A DNA stretch of 64,000 nt from Herbinix hemicellulosilytica (lineage in GTDB: Bacteria; Bacillota; Clostridia; Lachnospirales; Lachnospiraceae), in contig NZ_CVTD020000018.1 in assembly GCF_002904165.1 (NCBI RefSeq), positions 1-64,000 of the forward strand, read 5' to 3'. Below the pieces are notes generated by a model, which saw only the letters and a program-made list of their open reading frames with translations, had not been told where the DNA came from and searched no databases. Shown piece after piece: positions 29,453 through 40,806 of the stretch. A program made the position numbers and the translations under genes. Each line of letters starts with the position of its first letter. Position 1 is the first letter of the stretch.

Positions 29453-32005
29453 TTAATATTCCGCTTCCCTTAATCTCTCAACTAATGATGATTTGATAAC
29501 AGTACGATACATTTTTTCGGGTGTTATTATGCAAACCGCCAAAATCGTAAGACTGGCCAGAAAAACAGGTATAAACGGATAGCTAAATATTGCATAAGTG
29601 GCTTGTTTTCTAAATAAATTAAAAATCCCTACGGTAACGGCACTTCCTGCCGTAAAAACTAAAATTAGAATTAATGTTGCATACCAAAGTCCTTCGTATA
29701 TTAACATTTTTCTGACCTGTCTTCGGCTCATTCCCACACATTCAAGATTTGCCAGTTCTTGCCTCCGTACTGTGATACCTACTGACATTACATTTATAAA
29801 ATTGAGAATGCCAACAAAAGCAAGAATTAATGAAATACCTCCCCCAAGGATATACATTATTATTTTGCCTTCGCGTAATTCTTCTCTTGCTTCAGCCTTT
29901 GACCTGCGCGATATTTCATAATCCTTGTCCGTTAATTGCTTTATAGTTTCAAGAGTTTGCTTTTCATATTCTTTTGCCACATCAATACAAATTTTATATA
30001 TTACAGGTTCTTCATATATGGAATCCATTAAAGCATTTGACACAAAAACGGTAGGAGCCGCACTAAAACCTACTCTTTCAAAAAACAGAGGCACATAACC
30101 TCCAACCGGAACCTTCACAGGTTTTCCTTCCGTTTCTTTATGCATCTTTGTTTCATCGGTATTTTTTATCGGGTAAATAGTCAGTTCATCAACATTTTCA
30201 AACAGTTCCGGAGTATCGGTGGAAATCAGGGCTATTTCTCCCCTGTCAAATGCATCAATATCTATAGGGTTTCCCGAAGAATAATCCAGACTAGCAAGAG
30301 CTTCCTTATCTATACCCACCAAAATTCCCGAGAAGTTATCTTTCAGGTAATCTTCGCCCAGTCCTTCGCCTCCATATTTTTTAATGTACATGTCTGCATA
30401 TTTACCAAAGTCCTTTTGCGTATAATCAAGCCGCATCCATTCCCGGCTTGTTATGCGCAAACTTTCAAATCCGGATAAAGTTTTTATTTTTTCAATAAAT
30501 GAGGAGTCAAATTTTTGCTTTGGTTCTAAACCACCGGAAACAGTGTTATTTATCAGCACGATATCACTTTCCAAATAGGAATCAACATAATTATCCGTAT
30601 CCATGCTTGTTATAAGGGTTGTTACGCAAGTAAATGTTGTCATTCCCAAAAACAGGCTTATTATGACTATCGCTGCCCTCTTACCGTCTCTGAAAATATT
30701 ACGGAATGCCATTTTGAACGGTTTTCCGTTGGCAAACGAAAATATCCTTCCCGGATAAATCCGTTCCGGACGAACCATTCTTTTCTTAATCTTTAGCTTT
30801 ACACCGATATACTTCACCGCTTCTATCGGAGTAATACCCGCAGCTTTTTTGGCAGGTTTGAAGGCTCCGAGTAAAGCTGTAAGCAGGGCAAAAAGCGCTG
30901 CTCCTATATAAATTATGGGAGAAAAGGATATGACAGTCCCCGTTTTTGTGTCTTCATATATTGAAAGAGCCATGGGAACGGCAGCAAAAGAGACAAGAAA
31001 TGCTGCCGTTTCTCCGACCGGAATGCCTATTATACATAACTTAAGGATCTGTCCTGTGACAATCCGTTTAATTTGCCTTGGCGTTGTTCCGATGGTTTTA
31101 AGCAGGCCATAAAAACGTATATCCCGTGAAACCGAGATATAAAGTACATTATATATCAAAAGATAGCCCGTCAAAATCAGAAATATAACAATACAGGATA
31201 ATGCCAGTATGGAGTTTTTTATAGTCGAGGCATCCACATTATAAACCGGAACAGGCTTTACATTCTGGTTTTCGGATAAATTCAAATCTGAAACTAACAG
31301 ATCACAATACTCAGAAACTTTCTTTGAATTATCAAAAACCACCGATGCGGCACCGTCGGTTTCGGCTGTTTTACCAAGCCTTTTAGAAAACTCTTCCGAT
31401 ACCAAAATAAAATCTATATTACCGGACCTGATATGCATATAACTGGTAAACCACCCGGACAAACTAAATATTTTATCAACCGGTAAACCATCATTTACAT
31501 TTTTGTCATGATAAGTGAGAGGTATTTCCATGCCTATCTTTGGATTATCAACACCCATTTTTTCAAGTACCCATAACGGAACCATGATTTCATTTTCTTT
31601 CTGCGGATAGGTTCCGACTATATTTGTATAAGCAGGGGCGCGCAAATTCTCCCATTCGGTAGTATCAAAGTAATGTAGTGTTAAGCTCATATCGCCCATT
31701 TGCGGTGTGTTTTTTACTGTGGCAACATAATTTCCTGTACCGACTTCTTTTACGTAACTTAACTTTTTAAGTTTTTCCACTTGTATATCGGTAGGCCGAG
31801 TTATTGCCGCATGGGCTAAAGTCCCCATAAGGCGGGTTTCATGCATTTTCATTGTTTCCATAATACTCATACCGATGCTGAAAACTGAAGCAATGAGCAG
31901 TGTCGTAAGAGCAATAGCTGTCGTGATAAAAAAATTTCTTTTTTTATTTGATTTTAGGCTTCTGTTTATGATTTTTTTAATAACAGCTTTGTTGTTATTT
32001 TTCAT
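29453..32005 (-). CDS. ABC transporter permease with two FtsX domains (BceB/MacB-like)
   Basis: An 850-residue membrane protein. The N-terminal helix is followed by a large extracellular domain (~residues 45-265), three helices forming the first FtsX domain (~270-390), a linker and helix, a second extracellular domain (~470-720), and a final three-helix FtsX domain (~730-845). Such permeases pair with a small ATPase to expel or detach peptide antibiotics from the membrane or cell wall. The start overlaps the ATPase stop by 11 bases. Which peptide it handles is unknown. Confidence 0.88.
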   Translation of the reverse strand: MKNNNKAVIKKIINRSLKSNKKRNFFITTAIALTTLLIASVFSIGMSIMETMKMHETRLMGTLAHAAITRPTDIQVEKLKKLSYVKEVGTGNYVATVKNTPQMGDMSLTLHYFDTTEWENLRAPAYTNIVGTYPQKENEIMVPLWVLEKMGVDNPKIGMEIPLTYHDKNVNDGLPVDKIFSLSGWFTSYMHIRSGNIDFILVSEEFSKRLGKTAETDGAASVVFDNSKKVSEYCDLLVSDLNLSENQNVKPVPVYNVDASTIKNSILALSCIVIFLILTGYLLIYNVLYISVSRDIRFYGLLKTIGTTPRQIKRIVTGQILKLCIIGIPVGETAAFLVSFAAVPMALSIYEDTKTGTVISFSPIIYIGAALFALLTALLGAFKPAKKAAGITPIEAVKYIGVKLKIKKRMVRPERIYPGRIFSFANGKPFKMAFRNIFRDGKRAAIVIISLFLGMTTFTCVTTLITSMDTDNYVDSYLESDIVLINNTVSGGLEPKQKFDSSFIEKIKTLSGFESLRITSREWMRLDYTQKDFGKYADMYIKKYGGEGLGEDYLKDNFSGILVGIDKEALASLDYSSGNPIDIDAFDRGEIALISTDTPELFENVDELTIYPIKNTDETKMHKETEGKPVKVPVGGYVPLFFERVGFSAAPTVFVSNALMDSIYEEPVIYKICIDVAKEYEKQTLETIKQLTDKDYEISRRSKAEAREELREGKIIMYILGGGISLILAFVGILNFINVMSVGITVRRQELANLECVGMSRRQVRKMLIYEGLWYATLILILVFTAGSAVTVGIFNLFRKQATYAIFSYPFIPVFLASLTILAVCIITPEKMYRTVIKSSLVERLREAEY

Positions 32006-32684
32006 TTATGCCCCGTCCTTCCCCAACAATTTTACCATCCTCTATACGGACAATGCGGTCCGAAAGCTGGGCAATGTGTTCGTTATGGGTAATCATAACA
32101 ATAGTCTGGTGGAATTTGGCAGATGTCATCTTAAGAACTCCCAGTACATCCTGGCTGGTTTTCGTATCCAGGTTACCGGTAGGCTCGTCCGCCAGTAATA
32201 TTGACGGTTTAGTCGCAAGAGCACGGGCAATGGCTACCCGCTGCTGCTGGCCGCCTGATAACATATTTGGAAGACTGTTTCGCTTCTCTTTAAGCCCCAG
32301 CAGATCAATTATTTCATCTATGAATGCTTTGTCCGGCCGGTTGCCGTCAAGTTCAATCGGAAGCACAATATTTTCATATACGCTTAAAATAGGAACCAGA
32401 TTAAAACTCTGAAATACAAATCCGACATTTCGCCTTCTGAATATGGTAAGTTCCTCATCCGACATTTTATCAAGTTCATGTCCGTCAACTGTTACTTTGC
32501 CCTCTGTCGGTTTATCAAGACCTCCCAACATATGAAGAAGCGTACTCTTTCCCGACCCGGATGCTCCAACTACCGTAACGAATTCTCCGGCTTCCACCTC
32601 CAGATCGACACCGTCCAAGGCCCGGACAATATTCGGTTCTTCTCCATAATATTTTTTTAGTCCCTGTGCAGACAAAATCGGCAT
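31995..32684 (-). CDS. ABC transporter ATP-binding protein (MacB/BceA-like)
   Basis: A 229-residue ATPase with Walker A GASGSGKST, Q-loop FQSFNLVP, signature LSGGQQQR, Walker B LLADEPTGNLD and switch His in MITHNE, all typical of the LolD/MacB/BceA group. GGGGAG precedes the ATG. It is encoded directly upstream of the FtsX permease and downstream of a two-component system, a layout typical of antimicrobial-peptide resistance modules. Confidence 0.9.
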   Translation of the reverse strand: MPILSAQGLKKYYGEEPNIVRALDGVDLEVEAGEFVTVVGASGSGKSTLLHMLGGLDKPTEGKVTVDGHELDKMSDEELTIFRRRNVGFVFQSFNLVPILSVYENIVLPIELDGNRPDKAFIDEIIDLLGLKEKRNSLPNMLSGGQQQRVAIARALATKPSILLADEPTGNLDTKTSQDVLGVLKMTSAKFHQTIVMITHNEHIAQLSDRIVRIEDGKIVGEGRGINEK

Positions 32685-32799
32685 TTTATCTCCCCTTCCG
32701 AATCCTGTTCATGCTGAACCAGATTTTTTTAAAGTTAAATAATATCTACGGCTTTATATAATACAGGGCAATTCTTACAGGGTCATGACAAAGATATAC

Positions 32800-33717
32800 T
32801 TATTTCTTACAGTTTTGTAAGAAAATTGAGAAAGTCGTATATTGTCCCGGCCTGGAGTCTGCATATATATATCCGCCTTGTTTTTGCAGGATTAAATTTG
32901 CCAGATAAAGCCCCAGCCCTACGCCATCCGTGTCTTTTGCGTTTCTTCCCCTGTAAAAACGCTTAAATATGGAATTAAGTTCGTCGGGATAAATGCCGAT
33001 GCCATTGTCGGTTATAATTATTTTTGTGTAGACAGGAAGAGTTTCCACAGATATATAAATTTCACTGTCAGGTGGGGAATATTTGATTGCATTATCCAGA
33101 ATATTTGTTATAGCCTCACTTGTCCATTTACGGTCATGTAACAGGGAAATATCCTCAAATTCTGCCGTTTTAACAGATATGTTTTTCCTTGATGCCTCCA
33201 TATAAACGGTATTGATACTGTCTGAAATGGTTTTCTTGATTTTTGCAGGAACGGGATTTAGTTCTATTACTCCCGCTTCCAGCCTTGATATCTTAACCAG
33301 GCAGTCCATCATCCATTGAAGCTTTTCTGTTCCCGTTTTTATACGGGATAAAAATTCCTGTCTTTCAATTTCGGTTATGTTGCCTTCAAGAAGCAAGTCT
33401 GTATACATGGCTATACTTGACAGTGGTGTTTTCATCTGATGAGCCATATCTGAAATGTACCTTTGTATAATCTCTTTCTCCTGCCTGGTTTTTTCAATAT
33501 CCATTGTACTTGTCTTTAAAATTCTTACAGCTTTATGCGTTAATTTTGATAAGCGGCTTTCTTTTGCCGTTTCCGACAAATTGTCATATTTTCCTGCCAT
33601 CATACTGTCAAAAACCATGTCAATGGCATCATACGTTCTTTTTACATACAGATAACATAATAAAGCGGTCAGGCCACATAATAATACACTTACAACAGAT
33701 ATAACTATTAGTGCCAT
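32800..33717 (-). CDS. Sensor histidine kinase of the ABC transporter module (BceS-like)
   Basis: A 305-residue kinase with almost no sensor domain. One clear N-terminal membrane helix (~residues 3-25) is followed directly by a linker, a HisKA domain (SDMAHQMKTPLSSI, phospho-acceptor His) and HATPase_c (DNGIGIYPDEL, GVGLGLYLA). Small, sensor-poor kinases beside FtsX-type exporters usually read the state of the transporter itself. It starts 2 bases after the regulator stop. Confidence 0.88.
   Translation of the reverse strand: MALIVISVVSVLLCGLTALLCYLYVKRTYDAIDMVFDSMMAGKYDNLSETAKESRLSKLTHKAVRILKTSTMDIEKTRQEKEIIQRYISDMAHQMKTPLSSIAMYTDLLLEGNITEIERQEFLSRIKTGTEKLQWMMDCLVKISRLEAGVIELNPVPAKIKKTISDSINTVYMEASRKNISVKTAEFEDISLLHDRKWTSEAITNILDNAIKYSPPDSEIYISVETLPVYTKIIITDNGIGIYPDELNSIFKRFYRGRNAKDTDGVGLGLYLANLILQKQGGYIYADSRPGQYTTFSIFLQNCKK
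32804..32823. promoter_or_regulatory. Inverted-repeat operator candidate upstream of the ABC transporter
   Basis: TTCTTACA and TGTAAGAA form a perfect palindrome with a 4-base centre, across the end of the histidine kinase gene and about 120 bases before the ATPase start. A second copy of the left half (TTCTTACA at 32772-32779) lies 32 bases closer to the ATPase gene. It is a plausible binding site for the adjacent OmpR-type regulator. Confidence 0.45.
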
Positions 33718-33719
33718 TT

Positions 33720-34403
33720 TTAAGCCTCCCCGTTCCAGATATACCCTATGCCGTGTACGGTTTTTATGGTTCTAGGATTTTTAGGGTCATCTTCAATCTT
33801 TGCCCGCAAACGGCTGATATTAACCGGCAGGGTATTATCGTCCACAAAATTTCCGTCCTTATCCCATAGAGCAGAGATAATTTGATCTTTTGAAAGGACT
33901 TGTCCGGCGTTTTTCATTAAGTATGAAAGCAATCTGAGTTCCGTAGCGCTGACCAAAATTTCCTTATCATCCCGGTAAAATTTGCATGTATCCATGTCAA
34001 GTTTGTATTTGCCTGAAATAATTACATTCCCTTTTCCCGCTTCCGTCCGGCGCATCAGGGCTTCAACCCTTGCCCGTAATACGGAGAGTGAAAACGGCTT
34101 GGTAATATAATCGTCAGCGCCTGCCATAAGACCGGATACTTCGTCCGTTTCCAAATCACATACTGTAAGCATAATAATGGGAACGTTTGAATAAGTCCTG
34201 ATATCTTTGCAAAAATCAAGCCCGCTTCCGTCCGGCAGCATCAGATCCAATATTATCAGATCAACCTTATGTTGTTTTATCAGTCTTTTTCCTTCATTTA
34301 TAGATTTTGCCGAAAGAATCTGATAGCCGTCTTTCTCAAAAATAAATCCTATTCCACGGTTTAAATGTTCATCATCTTCCAATATCAGAATCGTTTTTTT
34401 CAT
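33720..34403 (-). CDS. OmpR-family response regulator of the ABC transporter module
   Basis: A 227-residue protein with a receiver domain (acidic DD at the start, acceptor Asp in VDLIILDLMLPDGSG, Lys in YITKPFSLSVL) and a C-terminal winged helix (trans_reg_C, ending KTVHGIGYIWN). GGAGGT precedes the ATG. It is the first gene of the leftward regulator-kinase-ATPase-permease block and is divergent from the peptide cluster. Confidence 0.9.
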   Translation of the reverse strand: MKKTILILEDDEHLNRGIGFIFEKDGYQILSAKSINEGKRLIKQHKVDLIILDLMLPDGSGLDFCKDIRTYSNVPIIMLTVCDLETDEVSGLMAGADDYITKPFSLSVLRARVEALMRRTEAGKGNVIISGKYKLDMDTCKFYRDDKEILVSATELRLLSYLMKNAGQVLSKDQIISALWDKDGNFVDDNTLPVNISRLRAKIEDDPKNPRTIKTVHGIGYIWNGEA

Positions 34404-34566: not shown

Positions 34567-34644
34567 TATAGCGAGTAATATACATTTATTTCTAAATATC
34601 ATTAATTAATGTATAAATTTACTATAATTAGAAAGGAGATTGCC

Positions 34645-35316
34645 TTGGATAGTATTGTTATTGTTGATGACGAAAAAGATATTGCAGATTTAATATCTTT
34701 ATATATTGAAAATGCCGGATATAAACCTATTGTCTTTTATAATTCCCGGGAAGCTGAAAAGTATTTGGATAATAATATACCGTCTGCTTTAATATTGGAT
34801 ATAATGATGCCTGAAATTGACGGTTTATCCGTTTTAAAAAAGTTAAGAGAAAATCATAATTATCCTATAATTCTGCTTACTGCAAAAACCGGCCAGGCCG
34901 ATGTACTAAAAGGCCTGTATTCAGGGGCAGACGATTATATTAAAAAGCCCTTCGATCCTCTGGAACTTATTGCCAGACTCAATGTTCATCTAAGAAAAGT
35001 CCCTAAGCAAATATCAAATGAGATTACTTACAGAAATGTAAGTTTAAATAAAGCAAAACATGAGTGCAAATTAAACAATATAGACCTCCAGCTTACACCG
35101 ATAGAGTTTAAGATAATGGAAATCTTGATGGAGCAGGTAGGAAGTGTGGTCAGTTCTGAAGAAATTTTTAAAAAAGTTTGGAAAGAGGATTATTTTGAAA
35201 AAGACTCTAACACTGTCAGTGTACATATTAGAAATATAAGATATAAAATGAATAAAATATCAAAAAACACCGATATAATAAAAACTATATGGGGAGTAGG
35301 ATATAAAATTGAATAG
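34645..35316 (+). CDS. OmpR-family response regulator of the peptide cluster
   Basis: A 223-residue regulator with a receiver domain (IVIVDDEKDIADL, acceptor Asp in ALILDIMMPEIDG, Lys in YIKKPFDPLEL) and a winged-helix DNA-binding domain (TPIEFKIMEIL...KTIWGVGYKIE). I chose TTG at 34645 because AAAGGAG lies 6 bases upstream. A longer frame from 34609 lacks a site. It overlaps the kinase gene by 8 bases. It heads a rightward, AT-rich gene set and probably controls the maturase, precursor and export genes. Confidence 0.88.
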   Translation: MDSIVIVDDEKDIADLISLYIENAGYKPIVFYNSREAEKYLDNNIPSALILDIMMPEIDGLSVLKKLRENHNYPIILLTAKTGQADVLKGLYSGADDYIKKPFDPLELIARLNVHLRKVPKQISNEITYRNVSLNKAKHECKLNNIDLQLTPIEFKIMEILMEQVGSVVSSEEIFKKVWKEDYFEKDSNTVSVHIRNIRYKMNKISKNTDIIKTIWGVGYKIE

Positions 35317-36463
35317 TAAAATTTTTTGGATAAAAAAGGCAGTAAAAGCAATAACGGTTGTTTTAATAATTTCCTTTATTCTATTAATTATAAAATATTT
35401 CTTCTCTATAAAAATAGGTGATTTATTTGTTGACCTTTTTATGTCAGATGTAGAATTACCGGATAATATCCCATTAAGCAGGGGTACTCTGTTATGGCCT
35501 AAATTAAAAACAGCTATAATAATTTCCCTCATTTTCATAGTATTATCGGCAATTTTTATATATATTTATACGGGATATCAGGTTGAGAAAAAAACAAAAG
35601 ATAGGGTTGAAAAAGACTGTTCCAAAGTATTGGCTGAAATTATAAGATCCAACGAACTTCCAAATGATTATGATAAAATTCGCGATTACAATATCTTTTT
35701 TAATACTCTTAAAATATTTTTCAGTAAATATTATCGCATAGAAGATGAAATAGAAAAAAATAAAATTAAAGACGAACTTATAACTAATTTTACACACGAT
35801 ATAAAAACTCCCTTAACATCAGTTATTGGATATTTAAACTTACTTGATACAGATACGGATTTATCGGAAAAATCCAAAAATAAATATATTAAAATAGCTC
35901 TTTTGAAAGCTTTATATTTGGAAAAGCTGTTGGATGATTTGTTTTATCTGACCAAATATGATTCAGATTATAATAACAAATTAAAAGAACAAGTCAATCT
36001 CGCAATACTTCTTAATCAACTAAAAGATGAATTTTATCCGCAGCTGACAGATAAAAATATGGATATTAATCTACTTATAGAAAAAGATGTGTATATAATT
36101 ACATTTGTTGAAGAATTTTCCAAAGCTCTAGGAAATATTATAAAAAATGCCATAAATTACGGATACGAAAATTCCAGTATCACATTGGAAGCATTAATTA
36201 AGGACAATATGTTAACTCTTAATATTTCTAATTATACCGATGAATTAACAAAAAACGAATTGTCATTAATTTTTGAAAGGTTTTACAGAGGCAAGAACTC
36301 AAGATCATCAAGTCAAGAAGGGTCAGGTTTAGGACTAGCGATCGCAAAAAAAATAATTACAGATTTAGGCGGTAATATTAAGGCACACAGTAATAACAAT
36401 CAATTTACTGTTTCAATTAGCCTGCCTAATATAGTAAATGAAAAAACCGATATAAAATCTTAA
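35309..36463 (+). CDS. Sensor histidine kinase of the peptide cluster
   Basis: A 384-residue kinase with a membrane helix at ~residues 10-28, a short (~40-residue) external loop, a second helix at ~70-90, then HisKA (THDIKTPLTSVIGYL) and HATPase_c (SGLGLAIAKKII). It begins at TTG (35309), coupled to the regulator stop. The N-box asparagine region reads ALGNIIKNAINYG. The short external loop suggests a membrane or peptide signal, similar to VanS-type kinases of about this length. Confidence 0.87.
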   Translation: MNSKIFWIKKAVKAITVVLIISFILLIIKYFFSIKIGDLFVDLFMSDVELPDNIPLSRGTLLWPKLKTAIIISLIFIVLSAIFIYIYTGYQVEKKTKDRVEKDCSKVLAEIIRSNELPNDYDKIRDYNIFFNTLKIFFSKYYRIEDEIEKNKIKDELITNFTHDIKTPLTSVIGYLNLLDTDTDLSEKSKNKYIKIALLKALYLEKLLDDLFYLTKYDSDYNNKLKEQVNLAILLNQLKDEFYPQLTDKNMDINLLIEKDVYIITFVEEFSKALGNIIKNAINYGYENSSITLEALIKDNMLTLNISNYTDELTKNELSLIFERFYRGKNSRSSSQEGSGLGLAIAKKIITDLGGNIKAHSNNNQFTVSISLPNIVNEKTDIKS

Positions 36464-36508
36464 GAAAATCTTCATATTTTCTTGCAATAATATACATAAA
36501 TTACAATT

Positions 36509-36551
36509 CCGTATTTAGTACACTATATCAAAGTACTAAATACGGATTTTT
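36509..36551 (+). terminator. Perfect-stem terminator or attenuator just before the maturase gene
   Basis: CCGTATTTAGTAC (36509-36521) pairs exactly with GTACTAAATACGG (36533-36545), followed by ATTTTTATA. Only 20 bases separate it from the maturase start, leaving no room for a separate promoter. It either ends the regulator-kinase transcript or attenuates a read-through transcript. Confidence 0.75.
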
Positions 36552-36571
36552 ATATAAAGGGGGGAATATTC

Positions 36572-38122
36572 TTGATAGATAATATAATAGAAAAAATAGA
36601 ATCTGTTATACATTGCACCAACTTTTCCAGATTGGGCAGATGCTTTAGAACCAGAAAAAATTATTATTTTTATGACTTAGGTACAGGAAAAGTCTTTCAA
36701 GTAAATAAAGTAACATTTGATATATTAAATAACATGTTAAATTATAATGGTTTTTCTCATATAGACGAAATTAATTACTCAGAATCGGAAAAAATGTCAG
36801 CTCTAGAAGAATTATATGATGTAATTATAAAAGAAAATATATTACAAGCTCCTGAACTAACAGAATTTATCGGGCCTCAAATTAGTGAACTAGATGAATT
36901 CCTTAGATCAAAAAGAAAACAAATAACTCTGGAATTAACAGAAAAATGTAATATGAGATGTAAATATTGTATATATCATGAAAACCAAGGTGGATACAGA
37001 AGATTTGGAAATGCAGACATGACATTTGACATTGCTAAGAAGGCTATAGATGACCTTGTTATAAATAGTGGAGAAGAGACAATACATGTTACATTTTACG
37101 GTGGTGAGCCATTACTAAAATTTAATTTGATAAAAAATTGTATTGATTATTGCAAAAATTTTAAAGATAAGAAAATATCATATGCAATAACAACAAATTG
37201 TACATTAGTAACTAAAGAAATTGCAGAATATTTTTCAAAGTTAAAAAATCTTCATATCACAGCTAGTTTAGACGGCCCTAAAGATATTAATGATAAATAT
37301 AGAGTATATATTAACGGAAAAGGTACATTTAAAGATGCAATAGCCGGCTTAAAATTGCTTGTTGATATGTGCAGACATGAAAATTCTATAACATTTGGAA
37401 TCAACTGTGTATTACCAGAGCACGATATTAGCACACTTGAAAAAATTGATAACTTCTTCTCGAGTTTGGAATGGTTGCCTGAGAATGTGATATTCACATC
37501 ATCGTTTGTTTCAAGTGGAGAAAGAGAAATGGATTATATGGGTGTTGATAGTGAAATTGAAAAAGAAATCATGGAAAATAGCAAAAAAATTAAAGGATAT
37601 TTTGATCCTTTGTATGAATGGGCAACTAGTGATATCAATAAAAGTGAATTTGCATTTAGAAATATAGCAAAAGATAACATAATAAAAGATTTGGCGTTGA
37701 TCCACAAAAGGCATCTCTTTCATCATCCAATGAAATTTTATTATATGAATGGTTGTTGTGTTCCCGGTGCCAGACGAGTTTATGTAACAGCTAAAGGCGA
37801 ATATCTTATTTGCGAAAAATTAGGGGAAGCCCCATCTATAGGAGATGTTTATTCCGGTTTAGATATAGAAAAAATAAAAAAACATTATGTTAACGACTAT
37901 TGTAATGAGGCACTAAAATATTGCAAAGACTGCTGGGCAATACATTTGTGCGGAATGTGTTATATGAACTGCTATGATAAAAATGGAATTCATATTAGCT
38001 ATAGGCACAGCCATTGTATAATGAACAGAATTTATATTGAAAAAAACTTATCACTTTACCATGAGTTACTTGAAAATAATCCAAAAATAATTGAAGGATT
38101 AAATGATTATGTTTTTACATAA
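36572..38122 (+). CDS. Radical SAM/SPASM peptide maturase
   Basis: A 516-residue enzyme. Residues ~1-110 form an N-terminal peptide-recognition-like region. The radical SAM core begins near residue 115, with the [4Fe-4S] motif CNMRCKYC (CxxxCxxC) and a GGEPLL motif. The C-terminal SPASM region is Cys-rich (CCVPGARR, ICEKLG, CKDCWAIHLCGMC, NCYD, HC), enough for auxiliary clusters. Such enzymes install thioether or other radical links in peptides, and its partner is the Cys-rich peptide just downstream. The layout resembles the Cys-rich-peptide maturase CcpM group (from memory). The start is TTG behind GGGGGG. Confidence 0.9.
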   Translation: MIDNIIEKIESVIHCTNFSRLGRCFRTRKNYYFYDLGTGKVFQVNKVTFDILNNMLNYNGFSHIDEINYSESEKMSALEELYDVIIKENILQAPELTEFIGPQISELDEFLRSKRKQITLELTEKCNMRCKYCIYHENQGGYRRFGNADMTFDIAKKAIDDLVINSGEETIHVTFYGGEPLLKFNLIKNCIDYCKNFKDKKISYAITTNCTLVTKEIAEYFSKLKNLHITASLDGPKDINDKYRVYINGKGTFKDAIAGLKLLVDMCRHENSITFGINCVLPEHDISTLEKIDNFFSSLEWLPENVIFTSSFVSSGEREMDYMGVDSEIEKEIMENSKKIKGYFDPLYEWATSDINKSEFAFRNIAKDNIIKDLALIHKRHLFHHPMKFYYMNGCCVPGARRVYVTAKGEYLICEKLGEAPSIGDVYSGLDIEKIKKHYVNDYCNEALKYCKDCWAIHLCGMCYMNCYDKNGIHISYRHSHCIMNRIYIEKNLSLYHELLENNPKIIEGLNDYVFT

Positions 38123-38170
38123 ATGTTTAAACATAAAGCAATAAATTTATATTATGAAGGAGGTGTAAAA

Positions 38171-38395
38171 ATGAAACTAATTAACCCTTTAGGCAGAACC
38201 CCTGCAAGCAGCTTGTTTGAAGGAAATGAAATTCTTCCTATGGCTTGTATGTGTTCTACCGAGACAGCTTTTGTTACTACAAGGGGCGATGACAGTTGTT
38301 TCAAATGTGGCTGTTCATGTTCATCAACTACATACAGCGCAGGTAATTCTCAAGCAGCTTTTTGGACAATTAGAAAGTCTGGCTCAATTGAGTAA
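38171..38395 (+). CDS. Cys-rich RiPP precursor peptide
   Basis: A 74-residue peptide. AAGGAGGTG lies 6 bases before the ATG at 38171; the frame also runs open from 38123 but without a site. The first ~25 residues (KLINPLGRTPASS...NEILPMA) look like a leader. The rest holds six cysteines at residues 26, 28, 43, 46, 48 and 50 (CMC and CFKCGCSC), a TTRGDD turn, and a Ser/Thr-rich stretch. The peptide lies directly after a radical SAM/SPASM maturase and before an ABC exporter. Cys-to-residue thioether (sactipeptide or ranthipeptide) crosslinks are the expected product. The layout resembles the CLI_3235-class putative bacteriocin precursors, which I cannot verify here. Confidence 0.8.
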   Translation: MKLINPLGRTPASSLFEGNEILPMACMCSTETAFVTTRGDDSCFKCGCSCSSTTYSAGNSQAAFWTIRKSGSIE

Positions 38396-38420
38396 CGTAA
38401 TTATGTTATTATGTAAGGAA

Positions 38421-38461
38421 AAAGAGTTCATAAGCAAACATTTAACTCATGAACTCTTTTA
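38421..38461 (+). terminator. Internal terminator between precursor and exporter genes
   Basis: AAAGAGTTCAT (38421-38431) pairs with ATGAACTCTTT (38449-38459), followed by a short T stretch. It lies 26 bases after the precursor stop and ends just before the exporter ribosome binding site. Partial termination here would give more precursor than transporter. Confidence 0.75.
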
Positions 38462-38484
38462 CAAAGTATATCCGGAGGAAATAA

Positions 38485-39369
38485 ATGAATGTAATGTATA
38501 TAAATAACATATCCATGAATTACGGGAAAATAAAGGCTTTGAATAATATTAATTTAACAATAAGTAAAGGATTATACGGTTTACTGGGTGAAAATGGTGC
38601 AGGAAAAAGCTCATTAATCCGAATAATTACGGGCAGGCAAAAGCCAACAAACGGAGAAGTTATTTTTAATAATGCTTCAGTAAAAAGAAACAAAGAATTC
38701 CATCAGGCTTTGGGGTATATGCCGCAAAATTTTAAAGCCCCGGAAGATATGAGATGTTATGAATATCTTACTTATGTAGGAATGTATAAAGGCCTGTCTA
38801 TGAATCAAATAAACGAAAATATTGATTGGCTGGTCAATATTTTAAATTTAAATGATCATATCAATAAAAAAATAAAGAATCTTTCAGGCGGAACATTGCG
38901 GCGGCTCGGTATCGCACAAGCTTTTATAAATCAACCAAGCTTTGTAATTTTAGATGAGCCCACTGCCGGATTAGATATTACTGAAAGAAGAAATTTTCGG
39001 GATTTTGTATCACGTTACAGCGAGAAAAACACTGTTATTATATCAACACATATTGTTTCCGATATAGAGTATATTGCAAGCGATCTGATACTTTTAAAAA
39101 AAGGTAACGTAATATCAAACGGAAAATATAAAGACCAACTGAACGAAATACAGGGAATGGTCTGGGAATGCAAGGACAGGGAAGATAAAATATTAAGTTT
39201 AAGAAAACTAGTTGAGAATTATGGTGGCATTATCACTAATTATAAAGGCGAAGATCCAATGGAAAATCAGCTCAGATATATTAGCAGTATCAAATTGAGT
39301 GATACATCAGTAAGTGCAATTCCAAATTTAAATGATTATTATCTTTGGAAAATGTGGAGGCAGCAATGA
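38485..39369 (+). CDS. ABC transporter ATP-binding protein of the peptide cluster
   Basis: A 294-residue ATPase with Walker A GENGAGKSS, Q-loop MPQNFKAPEDM, signature LSGGTLRRLG, Walker B FVILDEPTAGLD and switch STHIVSDIEYIAS. It belongs to the ABC-2 exporter/immunity ATPase type with a C-terminal regulatory tail (~residues 225-294). GGAGG lies 6 bases before the ATG. It is coupled to the permease by a 4-base overlap and would drive peptide export or self-protection. Confidence 0.9.
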   Translation: MNVMYINNISMNYGKIKALNNINLTISKGLYGLLGENGAGKSSLIRIITGRQKPTNGEVIFNNASVKRNKEFHQALGYMPQNFKAPEDMRCYEYLTYVGMYKGLSMNQINENIDWLVNILNLNDHINKKIKNLSGGTLRRLGIAQAFINQPSFVILDEPTAGLDITERRNFRDFVSRYSEKNTVIISTHIVSDIEYIASDLILLKKGNVISNGKYKDQLNEIQGMVWECKDREDKILSLRKLVENYGGIITNYKGEDPMENQLRYISSIKLSDTSVSAIPNLNDYYLWKMWRQQ

Positions 39370-40595
39370 AATTTATAAAAATATTTAAATTGGAATTATG
39401 CTATTTTTTTAAGAAAAAAATTAACTTCATTATTTTAATTCTTGCTGTTGTAGCAGGCTCTTTAACCGGCTATTTCTTCTTAAGGGGAATTATGGCTGAT
39501 AAGATAACAGAAACCGGTGACGTAGAAATAATTAAAGGAAAAGAAGCAATTAAATTGACTGCAGAATATAATCGGGCATTTGAAGGGGAAGTTACTGTAG
39601 AAAAACTTCAGAAAGCCCGAGAAATATATATCAATCATTATGACTTTATTAAGGAAAAATTAATATATACCTGCGAACTTTTTGAAGCTACTCCTTTATT
39701 AGGTATTATGCAAGGACTTACCTTCCCTCCCAAAGGAGATATGATCATTATTCCTTGGAACTCCCATATTCCGCCTACTGAATATGCCGACCAATATTAT
39801 TCATTAAGAAAAAAAATGATCCAAAAATATATAGATGCACTAAGTGACAAAAAAATTGGCAGGAAAATTGCAGATATGGAAGACAAAATAAAAAAGCCAT
39901 TTGTTTATTATGAGAACTATGATAATTGGGGCGATTCAATCGAATGGCTGACTATGCTTATAATTTTAATAACCGTTATGGTTATTATAGTTTCTTCTAC
40001 GGCATTTTCAGAAACCGTTGAAAATGGTACTAAAGATATTATATCAATTACAATAGAGGGAGAAAGAAAGTTTCCGTTAGCAAGATCCCTTTCTTTGTTT
40101 ATCTTAAATACATTACTTTATATTATTCCTATATCAATCTACTTAATTTCAATTTATGTTTCATTAGGCGGAAAAGGACTTCAAACAAGTTTACAGGTTA
40201 ATACCCCATTTTCTCCTGCCAATTATACGTTGGGAAAAGCTATGCTATTAGAAGTAACAGGAGGTTATATTGGGGTAATCGCAATAGGATTTCTTAGTCT
40301 TCTTATTTCTTCTATTTCAAAGAAAAGTGGTACGTCAATAATAATTTCAGTAGGAATGTTTTTAATATATATGATTATGGAGATTTTTATAAGACCTCAG
40401 GGCAAATTTATGAACTTATTAGTGTCGTTATTTCCTGCAGGAATTAGTCAAATATTTTATAATATTTTTTCATACAGATTTGTTAATATTGCCGGTTTTG
40501 CTGTATGGTTGCCATATTTAATGATACCGGCAGGAATTTTTCAAATTTTCTTTTATTGGTACATTTCGATAAAAATGTATCGATTGTACAAATAG
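39366..40595 (+). CDS. ABC-2 type permease of the peptide cluster
   Basis: A 409-residue membrane protein with a first helix at residues ~17-40, a ~150-residue mostly charged external domain (~41-190), and then about five to six helices in the C-terminal half. The ATG at 39366 follows GGAGG and overlaps the ATPase stop; the longer frame from 39345 is less likely. No C39 peptidase domain is present in either transporter gene, so leader removal must be done by another protease. It may export the mature peptide or give immunity. Confidence 0.85.
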   Translation: MKFIKIFKLELCYFFKKKINFIILILAVVAGSLTGYFFLRGIMADKITETGDVEIIKGKEAIKLTAEYNRAFEGEVTVEKLQKAREIYINHYDFIKEKLIYTCELFEATPLLGIMQGLTFPPKGDMIIIPWNSHIPPTEYADQYYSLRKKMIQKYIDALSDKKIGRKIADMEDKIKKPFVYYENYDNWGDSIEWLTMLIILITVMVIIVSSTAFSETVENGTKDIISITIEGERKFPLARSLSLFILNTLLYIIPISIYLISIYVSLGGKGLQTSLQVNTPFSPANYTLGKAMLLEVTGGYIGVIAIGFLSLLISSISKKSGTSIIISVGMFLIYMIMEIFIRPQGKFMNLLVSLFPAGISQIFYNIFSYRFVNIAGFAVWLPYLMIPAGIFQIFFYWYISIKMYRLYK

Positions 40596-40744
40596 GAGTC
40601 GGATATAAACATGAAAAAACTATTACCGGAGCCTTGAAAACTGCATATGATTACTCTAAAATACTGTCTATTTTAAATACTTACATTATTTTTCATTACT
40701 ATTAGCAAAAGCAATATATTCAAATATTATAATCATATTTAAAA

Positions 40745-40806
40745 AATGCTCTGTATCCGGTGATTTCATGTTTTAATGTTTATAATCACACCTGACACAG
40801 AGCATT
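40745..40806. terminator. Bidirectional terminator between the peptide cluster and malQ
   Basis: AATGCTCTGT (40745-40754) pairs with ACAGAGCATT (40797-40806), and an inner GGTGATT pairs with AATCAC-CC. The right side continues ATTTTAC. It lies in the 380-base gap between convergent genes (40596-40976), which shows no gene that I can support apart from a negligible 8-codon frame at 40611. Confidence 0.75.

Follow-up and report, generated by a model that had tools for sequence, protein, structure and literature searches.

The 64,000-nucleotide window analysed here (positions 1 to 64,000 of contig NZ_CVTD020000018.1, assembly GCF_002904165.1, from the lachnospiraceous bacterium Herbinix hemicellulosilytica) carries a cluster of six rightward genes encoding, in order, a response regulator, a sensor kinase, a radical S-adenosylmethionine (SAM)/SPASM peptide maturase, a cysteine-rich precursor peptide, and the ATPase and permease of an ABC-2-type ATP-binding cassette (ABC) transporter (Table 1). 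A first-pass annotation had listed these genes in this order, and reading of the open reading frames (ORFs) confirmed all six as described; its remark that no leader peptidase is encoded is correct for the six-gene stretch. The same genes stand in the same order in Peptoniphilus lacrimalis (L002), Finegoldia magna (L003) and a further relative, L033 (relatives are cited by locus number), and because this order recurs the arrangement is more than chance.

Table 1. Features of the cluster, in window coordinates (RBS, ribosome-binding site; aa, amino acids).
Feature	Coordinates	Strand	Start and upstream signal	Support or setting
OmpR-type response regulator	34645..35316	+	TTG at 34645 behind Shine-Dalgarno GAAAGGAG (read from sequence); mechanical ORF begins at 34609	Response_reg 92.1 bits, Trans_reg_C 84.8 bits
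Sensor histidine kinase	35309..36463	+		HisKA and HATPase_c matches
AAATCTTAA, candidate regulator box	36455..36463	+		End of kinase gene, 117 bp before maturase start
Perfect 14-bp hairpin, terminator or attenuator	36508..36546 (arms 36508-36521/36533-36546)	+		-18.8 kcal/mol, T-rich DNA after
Radical SAM/SPASM peptide maturase, 516 aa, RumMC-like	36572..38122	+	TTG at 36572, preceded by AAGGGGGG	RumMC 494 bits, cysteine motifs, Radical_SAM match
Precursor peptide, 74 aa, 6 Cys	38171..38395	+	ATG at 38171, preceded by RBS GAAGGAGG; 48 bp downstream of maturase gene	TIGR04067 over cut-off, alignment, RBS
Hairpin between precursor and ATPase genes	38420..38460	+		15-nt arms, 93% complementary
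ABC ATPase of ABC-2 pair	38485..39369	+	ATG at 38485	ABC_tran 104.2 bits; 46% identity to L002
ABC-2-type permease	39366..40595	+	ATG at 39366, overlapping ATPase stop	43% identity to L002 permease
Exporter stub, broken N-terminus	40616..40690	+		tblastn E 0.009; stop at 40703-40705

The precursor belongs to the NCBIfam family TIGR04067, an equivalog-level model named “Apre_1838 family putative sactipeptide bacteriocin” (Apre_1838 / CLOSPO_01332), both by score (60.4 bits over positions 1–57 of 59, cut-off 45) and by the radical SAM/SPASM maturase that its gene adjoins. Its leader begins MKLINPLGR, and its core carries the groups CMC and CFKCGCSC, with six cysteines in all. The reading frame is kept across an alignment of 16 rows, the window included, in which most peptides share an MKxINPxGR-like leader, a CxC and a C-terminal CxC-rich group. 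When ten relatives' peptides were scanned, those of L002, L018, L033 and L047 passed the TIGR04067 cut-off, and those of L019, L046, L048, L051, L052 and L072 lay under every family cut-off. Two other assignments of the window peptide were rejected: the ruminococcin C (RumC) precursor model (NF035950, cut-off 40 bits) gave no match at E up to 1, and the CA_C0660 family model (NF035954) gave 31.2 bits against a cut-off of 60. Comparison with solved structures returned three chance-level matches (E of 1 or more), and a phage setting is not indicated: the precursor had no match in phages, and six short patterns run over viral contigs yielded 5 pattern matches and no relative. ORFs of 35–120 amino acids carrying five or more Cys in two spaced pairs number four in the window, counting both strands, and one of them holds the precursor. 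A Gly lies six residues ahead of the first Cys in the L002, L017, L018, L033 and L034 peptides, while Gly18 of the window peptide lies eight ahead. RumC1 is activated by trypsin after Lys19 (PMC6779426; this and the other papers are cited from excerpts). Arg9 is the sole basic residue between Lys2 and Cys26, the first Cys, of the window precursor, and because it is the only Lys or Arg between residue 3 and Cys26, such activation is not expected here.

The maturase contains the motif CX3CX2C together with the exact SPASM spacing CX13GX4CX36CX2CX5CX2CX18C, a combination reported for RumMC1/2, the ruminococcin C maturases (PMC8188230). This spacing occurs in 23 of 27 maturase sequences tested, the window included, and is absent from L035, L054, L073 and a second copy in L002. 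The first-pass annotation had proposed a hidden Markov model search against the SPASM and CcpM families; it places the enzyme nearer to RumMC (NF035951, 494 bits against a cut-off of 720, seven relatives tested giving 412–526) than to CcpM (TIGR04068, 263.5 bits against 500), both scores lying under cut-off. Membership of CcpM was rejected, as was membership of the SCIFF (TIGR03974) and PapB (NF047865) ranthipeptide families, for which the scores were 126.8 and 139.9 bits against cut-offs of 425 and 340. In a structure model of the maturase, residues 1–90, where the N-terminal RRE domain of a RumMC-type enzyme would be looked for, form a helix, three strands and two helices with block values of the predicted local distance difference test (pLDDT) of 67–88, and the rest of the model is mostly poor. 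Maturase genes vary among the relatives: in a Paraclostridium bifermentans plasmid (L019, 6932–8487) the maturase is divided over two annotated genes, and an M16-like gene (its Pfam match below cut-off) comes after a second maturase, 35% identical, upstream of the Peptoniphilus cluster (L002, 1267–3883), making L002 a region with two related systems near each other.

The association of maturase and peptide holds among the relatives read with flanking DNA. All 25 have, close to the maturase, a small Cys-rich ORF on the same strand (24 of 24 without L003, whose cluster is nearly the same as that of L002). Sixteen of these peptides, that of L072 among them, were identified through their resemblance to the window peptide; the other nine (L035, L051–L054, L070, L071, L073 and L074) were recognized by Cys pattern only, a weaker criterion, and the L070 peptide lies ~2.4 kb upstream of its maturase. 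The first-pass annotation had named two observations that would speak against a peptide system, namely maturase orthologues that always lack a Cys-rich peptide and a peptide frame not conserved in relatives, and neither was seen. The 25 loci are not 25 genomes, as L002 and L034 share one and L072 and L074 another. Left out before counting were L029 (the same plasmid stretch as L017), L004 (24% identity), L015 (below cut-off), L005–L013 (matches within the genus reaching 169.5 bits or less, three of them used as tree outgroups), and L020 with hits H5 and H6 (28–30% identity). L001, L014, L016, L021–L028, L036–L045 and L065–L069 are short duplicates of stretches that other rows cover with their flanks.

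The L002 and L003 maturases are 60%, and their precursors 66%, identical to those of the window, and a genome scan gave one further remote match; among six records retrieved by a plasmid search, those of Sarcina, Paraclostridium and Anaerococcus (41–46% identity) were examined. Maturase and precursor are each present once in their own genome. Among 34 genomes of the genus, the best other maturase match reaches 169.5 bits (32% identity over residues 25–497) against 1197.8 bits for the genome's own copy, and shorter matches reach 37% identity. At a threshold of 1e-60 the maturase was found, its own genome counted, in 5 of 299 genomes from the family and 2 of 398 from the phylum, and in 10 of 296 genomes of the order of one hit, G055. 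The TIGR04067 cut-off was passed in one of the 398 phylum genomes, which is its own, and in 7 of 130 genomes of the Peptoniphilus family, two already-known ones included.

Base composition and phylogeny bear on the origin of the cluster. The GC content (guanine plus cytosine) of the five long genes is 0.267–0.324, against 0.335 or more in 45 other ORFs of the window (ORFs of at least 150 amino acids kept by a simple overlap filter), and mean GC at third codon positions is 0.248 against 0.368. In the maturase tree, which included the second L002 maturase (1267–2838; not in the counts) and omitted L019 (its maturase being in two frames) and L070–L074, the window groups with Peptoniphilaceae, joining L002, L003 and L034 at 95/99 support and L002/L003 alone at 94/93; the tree program gave a warning about long outgroup branches. 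Three of the relatives are plasmid-borne, and the L002/L003 clusters lie near genes that by eye resemble relaxase/mobilisation genes. Because of the low GC of the five long genes and the grouping of the maturase with Peptoniphilaceae, the six-gene cluster is probably an imported island, and the simplest reading is a recent gain, presumably from Peptoniphilaceae-like donors.

A component common among the relatives is reduced to a remnant in the window. In 22 of the 25 relatives (21 of 24 without L003), L071 and L073 among them, and in all three of the window's own clade (L002, L003 and L034), the maturase has nearby an ABC exporter of 546–632 amino acids that resembles the L002 protein; L072 ends 1.1 kb after its maturase, so that an exporter there cannot be judged. 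In the window no full exporter was met; the permease is followed, after 381 bp, by a convergent 4-alpha-glucanotransferase gene, and a blastn search with the stretch after the permease gave no convincing match. The translation of the stub, out of frame with the nearest ATG, matches positions 4–27 of the L034 exporter with 54% identity in a tblastn search for which 8 of the 22 exporters served as queries. Compared with 19 of the 22 exporter N-termini, it scores best with L034 (51) and L002 (49), of the window's own clade, the next score (33) being at noise level. The score summed over five hand-picked exporters was equalled by none of 1000 first-order shuffles and none of 508 other window segments in six frames. 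Likeliest, on this sequence evidence, is a deletion that left the first codons of the exporter gene, an assembly error at this point being conceivable. A dedicated exporter elsewhere in the genome was rejected: the best-scoring of 86 matches to the exporter, mostly in ATPase domains, reaches 124.6 bits and 25% identity and is a C39 peptidase ABC transporter. This unlinked C39-type protein may act as a stand-in exporter.

M16 peptidase genes adjoin the exporter in L052 (9904–11151) and L071 (10876–11880), with genes of similar appearance, by eye, in L047–L050 and L053. Of three tested, the L052 and L071 proteins pass the M16 Pfam cut-off and that of L002 does not; in the genome of the window Peptidase_M16 is over cut-off at three places. 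An M16 peptidase is a candidate for the leader peptidase of TIGR04067-type clusters.

The remaining transporter, the ABC-2 pair, is complete. The window permease has no significant Pfam match; against ABC2_membrane_3 (cut-off 31.6) the L002 permease scores 19.2 bits, below it, and that of L017 37.8, above it. Hydropathy of the window permease shows six hydrophobic segments, the first of which is followed by a large loop, and its structure model (mean pLDDT 36.6) is unusable. VanZ-family genes occur in several of the related clusters (L017, 11935–12456, Pfam-tested; L030–L032; L019, 5999–6715), a hint that the peptide may target the cell envelope.

The regulator is VanR-like (vanR_ACDEGLN, 260.5 bits, under the cut-off of 350) and the kinase VanS-like (HK_VanS, 240.1 bits, under the cut-off of 400), hydropathy predicting for the latter two transmembrane helices (residues 14–32 and 68–86) with a short outer loop; a pair of the same kind is present in the fetched stretches of 9 of the 25 relatives (L002, L003, L017, L030–L033, L047 and L049). 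The candidate box AAATCTTAA has a single copy in the window, precedes the first biosynthetic gene by 100–152 bp in L017 and L030–L033, with no copy at that place in L002, and has two copies each within the stretches of L002, L031 and L032. It was picked after looking, four of the five loci concerned being close kin, and as a regulator box it is a lead only. Since the 14-bp hairpin parts kinase from maturase, one plain operon is not certain; a terminator scan with a loop limit of 8 did not call this hairpin. A promoter scan was uninformative (46 found against 43.6 expected), and a repeat pattern written after seeing the window and L002 was dropped, with 3 occurrences in 64 kb over both strands.

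The surroundings of the cluster also deserve mention. Immediately to its left, at 29453–34403, lies a divergent set of normal GC comprising an FtsX-type permease, an ABC ATPase, a histidine kinase and a regulator, an arrangement known from Bce-type peptide-resistance modules; two two-component/ABC modules thus stand back to back. To the right, in the gap that separates the operon from the convergent glucanotransferase gene, a hairpin at ~40745–40806 (arms AATGCTCTGT/ACAGAGCATT) is likely a two-way terminator.

The data presented above have led us to propose, as the probable reading, that a RumC-like sactipeptide, under the control of a VanRS-like two-component system, is encoded by a horizontally acquired gene set from which the exporter has been deleted. 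The kinase would sense the peptide or envelope stress, and the regulator would turn on the maturase-precursor-ABC-2 unit, perhaps via the candidate AAATCTTAA box. The maturase would then bind the conserved MKxINPxGR leader and link core Cys sulfurs to alpha-carbons, forming an N-terminal hairpin from CMC and a C-terminal one from CxxCGCSC, with up to six thioether bridges of −2 Da each. The ABC-2 pair may mainly protect the producer; with the dedicated exporter presumably lost by deletion, the peptide would stay in the cell, or exit by way of the ABC-2 pair or of some unlinked exporter, the C39-type ABC protein being an example. By analogy with RumMC, from which both chemistry and function are drawn, the product is likely a small, cross-linked, antibacterial peptide. 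The first-pass annotation had called the locus a complete radical SAM cluster for a ribosomally synthesized and post-translationally modified peptide, proposed that this peptide bears thioether links, and named the locus its leading candidate for the undescribed system. That it makes such a peptide is very likely on the sequence evidence, given that all 25 relatives have a peptide close to the maturase; completeness is contradicted by an exporter reduced to a stub, and novelty by a precursor that passes the TIGR04067 cut-off and by an Anaerococcus prevotii cluster in PMC3132745.

Several observations weigh against this proposal. The stub was first spotted in a tblastn listing, the five exporters of the summed test were hand-picked as the closest, and its best single score was equalled by 1 of 1000 shuffles and 1 of 508 segments. 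L070 and L074 show no exporter within the fetched stretch, so that the exporter is not universal, and intact maturase, precursor and ABC-2 genes would be odd had export been lost long ago. Upstream of the maturase, an 11-bp direct-repeat test fell short of significance, its result being equalled in 22 of 300 shuffles, eight other stretches doing no better (38 to 297 of 300); after the kinase stop no 9-mer is common to the window, L017 and L033 stretches, and an 8-mer that they do share also appears in 477 of 2000 shuffle sets. The nearest solved structure to the maturase is 5WGG by sequence, with 5WHY/5WGG the top Foldseek matches of a weak model (mean pLDDT 52.5). We take 5WGG to be CteB, an enzyme presumably reassigned to non-alpha thioethers.

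This structural likeness, the weaker PapB and SCIFF matches and the possession of its own two-component system would all suit a signalling peptide or a ranthipeptide with non-alpha thioethers in place of an antibacterial sactipeptide. We regard this as quite improbable, since the RumMC model scores far higher, the SPASM spacing equals that of RumMC2, several relatives have VanZ-like and ABC-2 genes, and three relatives are on plasmids. VanZ-like and ABC-2 genes and a plasmid setting are typical of bacteriocins.

The other alternatives concern the missing exporter. The cluster may be a decaying island in which production has been dead since the exporter was lost and only immunity and sensing, through the ABC-2 pair and two-component system, are kept against producing relatives. 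The stub, the rarity of the maturase in the genus and the GC composition of the island are consistent with this; the maturase and precursor frames, unbroken and with every motif Cys kept, argue the other way, and we hold it to be possible but doubtful. Conversely, a minimal cluster could be fully working, with the ABC-2 pair as exporter and the loss of the extra exporter harmless, as the six intact genes, the maturase and precursor of L070 and L074 with no exporter in the fetched stretch, and the naming of TrnF/TrnG as sole transporters for thuricin CD (PMC8172795) would allow. The exporter is kept in 22 of 25 relatives, and L019, L046, L048, L050 and L051 have it with no ABC-2 ATPase match in the fetched stretch, which points to the exporter as the basic transporter and makes a working minimal cluster unlikely. 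A long shot is that after exporter loss the ABC-2 pair became responsible for export and self-protection and, together with the short-loop kinase, for sensing flux; if true, one transporter would both move and report a sactipeptide, a compact self-regulating circuit of a kind not met for sactipeptides in the literature looked at. Exporter deletion from an acquired, RumC-like sactipeptide cluster remains our preferred reading, and such a natural loss would be useful for asking what the ABC-2 pair does.

The cluster is mostly an instance of a kind catalogued since 2011. With it, TIGR04067 gains a sactipeptide cluster from outside Peptoniphilaceae, for which a six-Cys product is predicted, and this little-studied family is tied to the ruminococcin C maturase via exact cysteine spacing; in literature excerpts found under six locus names, no characterisation of a TIGR04067 peptide was found. 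The A. prevotii cluster, filed as thuricin CD-like by similarity to TrnC, was described as comprising a histidine kinase, two ABC transporters and, as its possible structural gene, Apre_1838 (PMC3132745); its maturase, Apre_1837, is listed in PMC4289311. Like the window, plasmid pAPRE01 of A. prevotii has a two-component system, ABC-2 genes, a radical SAM enzyme (41% identical) and a precursor (47%), but its gene order differs and it has a second permease, a full exporter and a VanZ gene, none of which is in the window cluster. L002 and L003, identical in six-gene order, differ in an intact 576-aa exporter as seventh gene. SacP23 of Paenibacillus polymyxa, a CLI_3235-family peptide reported to be antibacterial and active against methicillin-resistant Staphylococcus aureus, likewise pairs a Cys-rich peptide with a radical SAM maturase, but has a CcpM maturase, a subtilisin-like protease and TIGR04066/04069 proteins (PMC10731318). 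Ruminococcin C (RumC1, RumMC1/2) shares with the window the RumMC2 SPASM cysteine spacing and a thioether peptide (in the window a predicted one) of similar size; it has five precursors with four Cys each (PMC6779426), whereas the window has a single precursor with six Cys, no RumC model match, no Lys/Arg at the leader-core junction and a maturase below the RumMC cut-off.

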